A stretch of DNA of 64,000 nt from positions 16,990,926 through 17,054,925 of the forward strand of contig OU744447.1 in the NCBI GenBank assembly GCA_916610825.1, in the 5' to 3' direction. The notes under the pieces are model-generated. The model was not told the DNA's origin. It worked only from the letters and a program-made list of their open reading frames with translations, and ran no database searches. Shown here one piece after another: positions 1,977 through 61,900 of the stretch. The DNA is from Haliclystus octoradiatus (taxonomy: Eukaryota > Cnidaria > Staurozoa > Stauromedusae > Haliclystidae). The position numbers and the translations under genes are program-made. Every line of letters starts with the position of its first letter. The stretch's first letter is position 1.

Positions 1977-2176
1977 ATAATAATAATAATGGAGTCAAAG
2001 ACTACGCATTCATTTTCTGTAACTTGAAGTTTCTCGCTTTAGGCGATCATAAGACAGATACTATTAAAGGAAAATATATACCAGTTACTCTTATTGACAA
2101 AAGTGAGAAAAAAATTTGAAAAATTAAAAACTATTGTTATACTTACAATGGTTTTATCTTTACAATTACTAAGTTA
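1977..2176 (-). mobile_element. 3' end of Penelope-like element PLE1 (cut off by gypsy)
   Basis: Read on the minus strand, this is the terminal part of a Penelope-like element: 3' UTR, a hammerhead-like motif (2016-2059), a conserved GTCTTTGACTCC end and a short ATT tail at about 1978-1990. The same terminal block recurs at 28496-28692 and 29255-29330. The rest of the element is on the other side of the gypsy insertion (7196-8745); both junctions carry the 4-bp target copy GTTA. The gypsy element therefore jumped into this PLE. Confidence 0.75.
2016..2059 (-). ncRNA. Hammerhead ribozyme motif HHR-1 (degenerate core)
   Basis: Minus strand. Stem I pairs UCUGU with ACAGA. The first core box reads CUUAUGA instead of CUGAUGA. 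Stem II is UCGC with GCGA around a CUAAA loop. The second box GAAAC is followed by a 5-base loop (UUCAA) and GUU, where a two-pair stem III and the cleavage site would lie. The altered core box probably inactivates it. The U-A pair closing stem II replaces the U-U mismatch seen in sister copies. Confidence 0.6.
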
Positions 2177-2361
2177 TGTAGCATATCCATAATTAGCCTC
2201 ATTCTAGCTACGCCTCTCATTCATGTAAGTCCAATATGTGATATTATAATTCCTGTTTTAATCAGTTTCCTATCTTGAGTAAGAAAAACATTTACCACGA
2301 ACTATACAGTCTCGTCATTTTGTTTATTATTACCGAACTAGTATATTACGACAACCCCACA
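2177..2361 (+). repeat. 5' LTR of gypsy element
   Basis: Begins TGTAGCATA and ends CCCCACA. It aligns along its length with 6994-7191, including the shared block around AATTAGCCTCAT and TTCATGTAAGTCCAATAT. It is about 13 bp shorter than the 3' LTR because of small gaps. Confidence 0.85.
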
Positions 2362-58900: not shown

Positions 58901-61900
58901 TTAGTCAAGTTTTACCGTGACTCTGAGTTTCGCGCTTGTACGCTCTCCAGACGGAATTTATTCTAATGTAAAACATAACCAGTAACTCTCTTTATATACA
59001 TGTATGAAAAATTATATTATTGATTTACACTTAGCTATATTGTATTCAATGTATTTACTTTGTATTTGTTTCCTTAAAGTTTCGCAGGTAATATTTATTT
59101 TCGTGGTGGCACTTCTTATTTATTGTATGATTATGTATATACGGTAGTATAGTTCTAGATATCGGATTAAACTTTAAAAAAATACAAAGCATAATTCGGT
59201 ATTTTGCCTACTAAAAACTGTTTAGTAAATGTTCTAAAGCTACGGCTACTCCACGACCCATCGTAGTAATATATTACTCCATCTTTCCTCAATACAGCTG
59301 TGAAATGCTTGCCTTCAAAGAGGGCGTTGCTGTTTCTGGCTCGAAACTATTGCCACTAAATAACGTTAACGATTTGGATAAATTCAGGATCGATGCTGGA
59401 TCATTACAATTCAACTGGATAGGCAGGATCCATGCCTCCATGGATGATTTGCAGTAAAATAGCCATGATTCAAATCCATTGGCAAATTGCACTCGTACAT
59501 CGTCTGCTTCGACTGATATAGCGAATGTTAGATCCAATTCTCGGGGGGGGGGGTAATTCCCACATGACTGCTAGACGCTCCACTCTTTTTAGTTCCATAT
59601 TCCAGCTGAGAAAATACTTCTTTGGGTATCGCGTTTCAAATTTTTGAACTTTTGGGTATCCTATTTTTGACTTCTTCAAAATTTTTTGAAAATTTTTTTG
59701 GTATGATTTTAAAGTTTTGAAACTTTTTGGGTAGCATCAACAGACTCCACTTTTTCCAAAGTGGTACACCCCGTTCCGACTAAAGAGCTGGAGTTACTCC
59801 CCTCCGGATCCAAGTTCGGAGTGGAAGGACAATCCCATATTTTAAAGTTAGAATTTTTCAGGGATAAAAGATATCATTATATACTGATGAGCCATGCACT
59901 CTTCATACCAAATGGCAGGGGACCTACGGTAGATCAATGGATTATTTTCAAAGCGAATAAGAAGAGTAATGTGACAGAAAAGGTAAATATTGAGTATACA
60001 TTGTATCGCGACGGGAAATTGATCACCGATGTTGATGGTAAAGATTGTAGTTTAATTGCTTCAAGTAGTGAAGGGGTGTACCACTGCCGCGTCTCGTGCA
60101 GGGATTCAACTTTGGAATCATCGAAAGTAACAGTTAGTTCAAGGACAATGAGACGTGTTCTATGTGTTTTCTTTTTTTAACGTTGTAATATTAAATAATT
60201 CTTATATTTGGTTCATATATCTATAAACATGTTACTGTAAATTATGTGTCTTCAAATTTGTTATTTTCAGCCTATACCATAGGGAGACAGGGGGACTATA
60301 ACACCCCCATTCGAGGATACCCAGTCGTGGAAAGGCATACTTGAATTTAGGCACACTTGATGGCATTGACTGGTGCATATTTTTATTGAAAGTACAGTAA
60401 AATCAATAACTATCTTCAAAACTTCGCGATGTTTTGCATCATTATATTCATCCTAAAATGGCTCAAATTTTGACTCAAAATATTTATTACGGGGCTATGA
60501 CATCCCACAGCCTATTTTAAGAGAAGTACTCCCCGGGTACTGACGTACTGACAGCATGACAAGTAAGTCTACTACAGTGACAGTTAAACGTAATTGTAAC
60601 CGAGTAATCGGGTTACTCTTTATAATAAACCGTCTGAAGAGCGTATTTACGCGATCGTATTTACTTATTACGTATTACGCGATTTACGTATTAAACTTGT
60701 GATCTTTGATCTATTAATTTATACTGGGAAGCATTTACACGGAATAACATAATTAAGTTGATCAAATCGTTCTTCAAATATCTATCCTGGAAAGTATATT
60801 TTTGTAAAATTATAGTGTTATTTATAAATCATTCTTATTCAAGTCCTGAATAAATGATGATGATGATGATGATATTGCTCTGCTTTCAGCATTTTGATGT
60901 TTTGCCCATGCATTTTATTTACTAACAAATAAACATTCAATCGAGAATCAATCCTGAATGAATGAAATCAGCCACAGCTTTTAATTGAGATACATACATT
61001 TAATTTATCTGAAGCATACAGAGCACTTTCGCTGATACTTATTTTATTTTATTTTATTTTCGCTGTTTTTATTTCGCAGAGCACTTTCGATCATATTTAT
61101 TCATTAATGATTTTTATGAATAAACTCGTTCCCTTGTTGCTGTGCCTCGTTGTGAATTTCAAGGCAGAAAAGTGTGAACGTTGAACTTTAGAAATTTGAG
61201 GTGTGAACGTTGAAGTTTAGCCCGCCGTCAAGACTACCGTCTCGTTTTGGACTTTTTTAGAAGAAGGTGCGAACGTTGAACATTGAAGTTCAACGTTCGC
61301 AGTTTGAAACTTTGTCACTTCTAAGCATACTTTCTATTGTCCCGTCACAGCGTGGGTTAGTCATCGGTTTAGACGCCTATCAGAAATTCCCAGTTTGTTA
61401 TTGACTCAACACGACAAAATCAACTCTTAAATTTCTTTTACAAGTAAAGAATTGGATTGCATTTAGCCATATAAATTGGCCAAGCTGTGTTTGTTATGCC
61501 CAATGTCTTATTTCTATCTTCTTTTTGCCTTTTTCTAAAAGTCACGATCGGTCACCCTTTTAGACATACGTGACCGGTCACGGTCATGGTCATGGTCACC
61601 CTTTTAGGCAGTCCCAAGAAAACTGGCTTATGAAGTCAGTTAGTAATTATATCATTCCTTACTTTTGCTGCTTGTTTACTTGAGCCAGAGAAAGATAGCA
61701 ATCTTGAAAAATGAGTTTAATTCAGTAATATAAAGAATTTAGCTGATGGATAGATATTCTACAAAGTTTTACATAAAAATATATGGCTTCAACAGGATTG
61801 GAAAGATGATTTCCAAGTGAAACTAAAGCTTGATTTTGGAATACTAATTAGGTGAAACTGTGGTTTTCAAAACTCAAACAGAATTTACTACAGTAGACCT

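Follow-up and report, generated by a model that had tools for sequence, protein, structure and literature searches.

The minimal type I hammerhead ribozymes of Penelope-like retroelements (PLEs), reportedly described by Cervera and De la Pena in 2014 and by Lunse, Weinberg and Breaker in 2017, are the closest described counterpart of the motifs considered here, which lie in a 64,000-nucleotide stretch of the genome of the staurozoan Haliclystus octoradiatus (contig OU744447.1, forward-strand positions 16,990,926 to 17,054,925; hereafter the window, in which positions are counted from its first letter). Both sets have the same core, an open stem I, a diminished stem III, a place in the pseudo-long terminal repeats (pseudo-LTRs) and tandem copies, as well as a palindromic stem III loop and, probably, a dimer mechanism. 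No categorical difference between them is apparent; particular to Haliclystus are the sequences, the many lineages and the count of inner stem III pairs given below. Passages on the Poseidon element PAc of Anolis carolinensis likewise describe a tandem PLE with a hammerhead in its pseudo-LTR and AT-rich targets (PMC11167929). PAc differs from L201, a complete Haliclystus element treated below, in that its open reading frame starts at motif stem II and its cleavage required the element's protein (same passages). Endonuclease-containing (EN+) Penelope elements of Adineta vaga resemble the present copies in their head-to-head inverted pseudo-LTRs, 5′ truncation and tandem units; the excerpted report gives head-to-head inverted layouts with junction palindromes as the most frequent arrangement, whereas the word "hammerhead" is absent from its main text (PMC3846280). 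Hammerheads of newt and axolotl and the metazoan retrozymes, as presented in parts of PMC7229834, are also of type I with a weak stem III, a palindromic loop and dimer action, but they belong to non-autonomous repeats of a few hundred base pairs, and the canonical types keep loop-loop contacts.

Ten hammerhead-like loci, spanning positions 2014-60676, were found in the window. The layout that the initial annotation had read at eight places, as a family of hammerhead-type ribozymes at Penelope-like ends, recurs at nine full loci containing both core halves, and the tally now stands at ten with the half motif C2. By stem I and tail, the loci fall into group A (four loci), group B (four) and group C (two). 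Judging from sequence, they are very probably known minimal type I hammerhead ribozymes of PLEs. The conserved core CUGANGA...GAAA...UH is intact in A2, A3, A4 and B3 (four of ten) and departs from the consensus in A1, B1, B2, B4, C1 and C2 (Table 1; core positions such as C3, G5, A6, N7 and G8 follow the standard hammerhead scheme). An intact core together with all stems is found only in A2, A3 and A4, the last exemplified by its stem I ACUGU/ACAGU, stem II CGC/GCG upon a U.U and stem III segment CUUCAAG; these three of the ten copies could be candidates for activity, given a partner. B1 and B2 count as one relic and not as two independent cases because both lie in an exact 720-bp tandem duplication (36986-38421), itself either a recent event or an assembly artefact.

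The assignment to PLEs draws on the position of the motif relative to element coding sequence. In the window, coding sequence with reverse transcriptase (RT) and GIY-YIG-like endonuclease motifs, read by eye, is present upstream of A1, A4 and B4, and A4 is located 157 nt past the endonuclease end of its element. In the 261,861,806-base assembly (33 contigs, searched on both strands), the pattern CTGATGA-N8..16-GAAACNNNNNGT has 1815 + 1848 = 3,663 matches vs 8 + 8 = 16 for the reversed pattern, a tally that itself selects for intact core letters. A strict pattern with CGC/GCG as stem II yields 787 + 773 matches vs 0 + 0 reversed, and one with a non-T at N7 yields 769 + 835 = 1,604 vs 20 + 10 = 30. 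When element copies were fetched with the A4 endonuclease (the best 30 of 150 scored matches, hence mostly one family), 28 of the 30 copies had the motif in sense, 133-164 nt past the end of the endonuclease (156-159 nt in 26 of them); 27 of the 28 carry CTGATGA and one TTGATGA, and in the two remaining copies a motif with a single departure occupies this position too. The earlier placement of the motif at Penelope-like ends is borne out by these loci together with the coding remnants before A1, A4 and B4. Motifs with a non-U N7, as in A2/A3, were sought beside a second endonuclease family (77-78% identity) and found where predicted in the two copies looked up by coordinates, at 11606780 (minus strand) and 11609754 (plus strand) of assembly contig C1, each 151 nt past the endonuclease end. 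Among 49 loci fetched by the motif itself, coding sequence was seen by eye at most 330 nt upstream in three (L182, L186 and L189), and the rest resemble lone ends. Of 20 neighbours lying no more than 600 bp apart among the first 100 listed genome places, 16 form outward pairs. Short tandem arrays of hammerhead matches with a retrozyme-like look also occur on the minus strand of contig C1, with six matches at 59-bp steps (C1:11374789-11375114) and four at ~121-bp steps (C1:12348746-12349145).

The motif also stands out from its background within the window. CTGANGA/GAAAC/GTH with a short loop has four matches vs 0.11 expected, a number reached in none of 100 shuffles; the four include one identical pair, A2/A3. 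A covariance model trained on A1-A4 only, and run unfiltered over the 64-kb window, places all six other loci above the background, which starts at 12.7 bits: B4 (29.1 bits, E 0.00013), C1 (24.4, E 0.0018) and B3 (19.6, E 0.028) are followed by B1 and B2 (16.9 each, E 0.13) and C2 (13.5, E 0.89), of which B1, B2 and C2 are weak judged by E-value alone. A second model, trained on all nine full copies, scores its own members at 53.5 bits or more by construction, C2 at 20.2 and the rest of the window at no more than 11.8; in 80 of 120 viral contigs that had been selected by core letters, it scored no higher than 16.4 bits. Among the matches listed, none of these 120 viral contigs, chosen by core letters alone as a negative control, had the stems, and four scans of viral and prokaryote genome contigs with tight hammerhead patterns gave 0, 0, 0 and 1 match.

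A complete element, L201, links the motif to an open frame. Direct repeats of 158 bp, set 2,523 bp apart and each holding the same motif (62.6 bits in both), enclose an open frame of 740 amino acids, which as a 740-codon stop-to-stop frame starts ~84 nt past the upstream motif and carries the motifs YRDDG and NYIG, both recognised by eye. These by-eye motifs and the layout are the grounds for calling the element Penelope-like; pseudo-LTRs, tandem units, head-to-head inverted copies and 5′ truncation, the marks of EN+ PLEs, are all found. Full-length relatives of L201 recur in the genome (60 scored of 3,580 candidates), and a search of viral contigs for relatives of the PLE protein found none. 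The 746-aa frame of one PLE family that shares ~68% identity with the L201 protein contains in-frame stops: of 18 listed copies, 16 have two TAG codons, and the remaining two have a TAA in addition to the two TAGs; either read-through or a stop-bearing master that is still spreading could account for it.

Table 1. Hammerhead loci and element remnants in the window, with example places (assembly contigs) of the in-frame-TAG family
Feature	Position	Strand	Description
A1	2014..2060	-	hammerhead relic; core CUUAUGA (G5 to U); stems intact
A2	28533..28579	-	hammerhead, core CUGAGGA intact; left half of inverted pair
A3	28609..28655	+	hammerhead, same sequence as A2; right half of inverted pair
A4	29282..29329	-	hammerhead, intact core CUGAUGA/GAAA/UU
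B1	37011..37056	+	hammerhead relic; box CUGUUCA (A6 to U, G8 to C); stem II broken
B2	37727..37772	+	duplicate of B1 inside the 720-bp exact tandem duplication
B3	52330..52375	-	intact core; stem II lost; inverted partner of B4
B4	52676..52721	+	hammerhead relic UUGAUGA (C3 to U); every stem intact
C1	58912..58957	-	hammerhead relic CUGGAGA (A6 to G); stem I CCGU/ACGG; stem II GCGU/GCGC
C2	60627..60676	+	half motif: stem I 5′ strand, CUGAAGA, stem II; without GAAAC; outward partner of C1
5′-truncated Penelope-like coding remnant of A1	7252..8807	-	RT motif YRDDG, then frameshifted endonuclease
C-terminal endonuclease part of Penelope-like element ending in A4	29476..30021	-	5′-truncated
C-terminal end of Penelope-like endonuclease upstream of B4	52399..52547	+	67% to A4 element over 151 nt
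Perfect inverted repeat with A2 and A3	28496..28692	.	95-nt arms, 7-nt spacer, 3′ ends outward, TAA/TTA tracts both sides
In-frame-TAG PLE family, example places	C2:32621420-32628656, C10:3760087-3769609, C11:8547781-8552501		C2 place consists of three units 2,516 bp apart

Covariation was assessed over 11 pairs in the nine full copies, seven of which are distinct. In the alignment, 81.8% of cells are paired, vs 28.6-45.2% when the strands are slid against each other. Both-sided changes occur in five of the 11 pairs, four of them in stem I, and the covariation score and the number of cells with double changes were each equalled in two of 500 shuffles. The claim that stem I differs among the groups and nevertheless pairs stands, with four of its five pairs changed on both sides and 85.7% of its cells paired. 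For stem II, said to change with pairing kept, this is true of the basal pair (U-A, G-C or otherwise U.U) and of one C-G to U-G change but not of B1, B2 and B3, in which the helix is broken; 67.9% of its cells are paired in the window, where its covariation holds weakly. The stem II of B3 was rejected as a case of covariation, since relative to B4 it carries a CG-to-CA change in each arm, which is decay. Stem II variants elsewhere in the genome, read by eye, keep pairing (CGC/GCG, UGC/GCA, CACC/GGUG, CGUU/AACG and GCGC/GCGC), and together with stem III, considered next, all three hammerhead helices appear to be backed by covariation. The basal U.U of stem II, suggested earlier as the mark of a subtype, does occur, but only in some lineages; parts of one report describe it for one axolotl hammerhead as well (PMC7229834).

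Stem III had been described as short. It is indeed minimal but not simply short, being self-complementary as well: the 7-mers of the nine full copies (CUUCAAG, CUUUAAG, CUAAUAG or CUCAGAG) are self-complementary apart from the middle base. Within one molecule, the two outer pairs can close a 3-nt loop and the third, inner pair cannot form. The outer pairs are invariant, and the inner pair is U-A, A-U or C-G in all seven distinct window copies. Genome-wide, it is kept in 3,508 of the 3,663 copies (U-A 1772, A-U 894, U-G 553, C-G 266, G-Y 23), and its two bases are complementary in 95 of the first 100 listed places, the other five having C.A. All 17 chosen representatives of 13 stem II types pair, 14 of them as Watson-Crick pairs, against a shuffled mean of 11.6, and 17 was reached in 32 of 200,000 shuffles; this figure is indicative, because the rows share ancestry and were hand-picked from the listings, one loop each, with two stem II types represented by three rows each that differ in their loops, and C.A loops were not used, though they are variants of two of the types. 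The self-complementarity of stem III therefore points to dimers, and the conservation of the inner pair lends support to the dimer mechanism already published. A complete element has the motif in both pseudo-LTRs, one unit (~2.5 kb) apart. Whether they belong to one transcript or to separate RNAs, two copies would pair via the stem III segment (3 bp, one mismatch, 3 bp) to form a double hammerhead, with cleavage after GUH and trimming of tandem transcripts as the presumable outcome, while a lone copy, left with a 2-bp stem III and a 3-nt loop, would be expected to cut poorly. The window copies are leftovers of insertion, 5′-truncated, often head-to-head inverted and, in group A, next to TTA repeats. 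Co-folding predicts a double hammerhead in the cases of A1 and A4.

The dimer idea is already in print, the title of Lunse, Weinberg and Breaker 2017 reportedly naming dimer cleavage, and the addition here is the inner-pair count across one genome. The literature passages on these ribozymes contain no comparable count; according to those of PMC6466107, dimer formation requires that the copies be in tandem and that the stem III loop be palindromic. It is conceivable, though on the whole we doubt it, that the need for a dimer is an evolved safety catch by which only tandem, co-transcribed or abundant PLE RNAs are cut. If so, it would keep thousands of lone or inverted copies silent inside host transcripts, the compensatory change of the inner pair (17 of 17 rows, 13 stem II types) would signal selection for inter-copy pairing, and differing inner pairs (U-A, A-U, C-G) might stop families from cutting together. 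The class of ribozyme is known, and this genome adds thousands of copies in many lineages and tandem elements with open frames; a comparison of lineages inside one animal can probe the dimer action of PLE hammerheads in the cell and their use to the element.

A number of results weigh against reading the loci as PLE ribozymes. Seven of the ten window copies are damaged, and the term "family of ribozymes" in the initial annotation overstated the window, in which most copies are dead, 5′-truncated or inverted fragments. None of the 4,227 Rfam families reached its gathering score in the window, the best hammerhead match being HH9 at A4 (21.7 bits, gathering 52, E 0.81), and Rfam found no hammerhead in L201 up to E 10. 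The covariance-model check proposed earlier thus yields nothing at gathering score with Rfam alone but succeeds with the models built here, and because the literature describes the minimal form, the silence of Rfam, which at gathering score misses this form, is taken as a probable library gap. Pfam gave nothing above cut-off for the element proteins, and no match to an RT or GIY-YIG domain; a PDB sequence search did not confirm the protein as RT/GIY-YIG, and neither did structure prediction, in which the endonuclease and RT pieces had mean predicted local distance difference test (pLDDT) values of 33 and 36 and the models were not used. PLE copies at C1:11267321 (a 71%-identity family) and C1:8219535 (the in-frame-TAG family) lack a listed match at the expected place. 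As to the helices, the number of pairs with both-sided change was equalled in 79 of 500 shuffles and is unremarkable, the count of further pair types was equalled in 492 of 500, the opposite direction, and the inner pair of stem III is C.A in 49 of 3,663 genome copies. Co-folding of the remaining five of seven distinct sequences gave other dimers and no double hammerhead, and the single-molecule minimum-energy folds contained all three stems in none of the sequences folded.

The degenerate window copies and the silence of Rfam are also what a chance or repeat-derived resemblance with no ribozyme meaning would produce; the genome counts against the reversed pattern refute this, and with the excess of tight-core matches in the window and the absence of stems from the viral contigs its probability becomes negligible. 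Instead of PLE ends, the loci could represent metazoan retrozymes, which are non-autonomous hammerhead repeats; this is suggested by the 716-bp tandem repeat of B1 and B2 and by the 59-bp-step array on contig C1, but is very improbable given the coding sequence upstream of A1, A4 and B4, the placement of the motif at the ends of PLEs in 28 of the 30 fetched loci and the minimal stem III. B1/B2 was rejected as a retrozyme, the box being dead and the repeat unit an exact duplication; retrozyme repeats measure 150-450 bp, with canonical type I motifs in a coral example, in the available parts of PMC7229834, and the short non-coding tandem repeats with a canonical type I hammerhead that mark metazoan retrozymes are not what is found here. 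A more serious alternative, which we nonetheless consider unlikely, holds that the motif is kept for protein binding or for the priming of reverse transcription, as a landing site on RNA within the pseudo-LTR, catalysis being incidental or protein-dependent. In the PAc passages, the Anolis hammerhead showed no cleavage without PAc protein, catalytic mutants still inserted and the hammerhead was unnecessary for insertion in vitro (PMC11167929), observations that also count against a ribozyme function in the present elements, and a review in excerpt calls the role in these elements "still a mystery" (PMC7761336). Against such a role, thousands of copies retain the catalytic, unpaired letters, although the count selects for these letters, and a self-complementary stem III suits dimers and is a feature of ribozymes, not of a generic protein site.

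The element remnants in the window match one another at 67-69% over the coding remnants of A1, A4 and B4. By coordinate arithmetic, A1 lies ~160 nt past its coding end, as with A4, once an inserted LTR element is removed. This element of ~5 kb (~2185-7225) interrupts the Penelope-like copy and splits A1 from its coding remnant; its LTR repeats are at 2185-2338 and 7003-7163 and its gypsy-type frames, named by eye, at 2894-6758. Three outward-facing pairs are present (A2/A3, B3/B4 and C1/C2), and group A ends adjoin TTA repeats. Very long AATAAC and TAA repeats occupy 24602-25349 (748 bases) and 28690-29250 (561), the second directly adjoining the A4 end. Inverted arms of 572 bp, 99% complementary (57653-58224 and 61045-61616), flank C1 and C2 and have the look of a foldback element or of terminal inverted repeats.

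Elsewhere in the window, 44-1920 and 25378-27218 form a ~1.85-kb inverted repeat in pieces, 93-98% complementary and some 23 kb apart. MicroRNA-like Rfam matches at 28551-28640, 55929-56272 and 62816-63058, all below gathering score, were rejected as inverted repeats or arrays of GTTCATGAAC, a self-complementary 10-mer whose two arrays (55932-56270 and 62729-63073) give rise to false matches of this kind. Pointing to an animal genome, an exon-like frame on the minus strand at 10605-10982 encodes a Death domain (E 5.1e-12).

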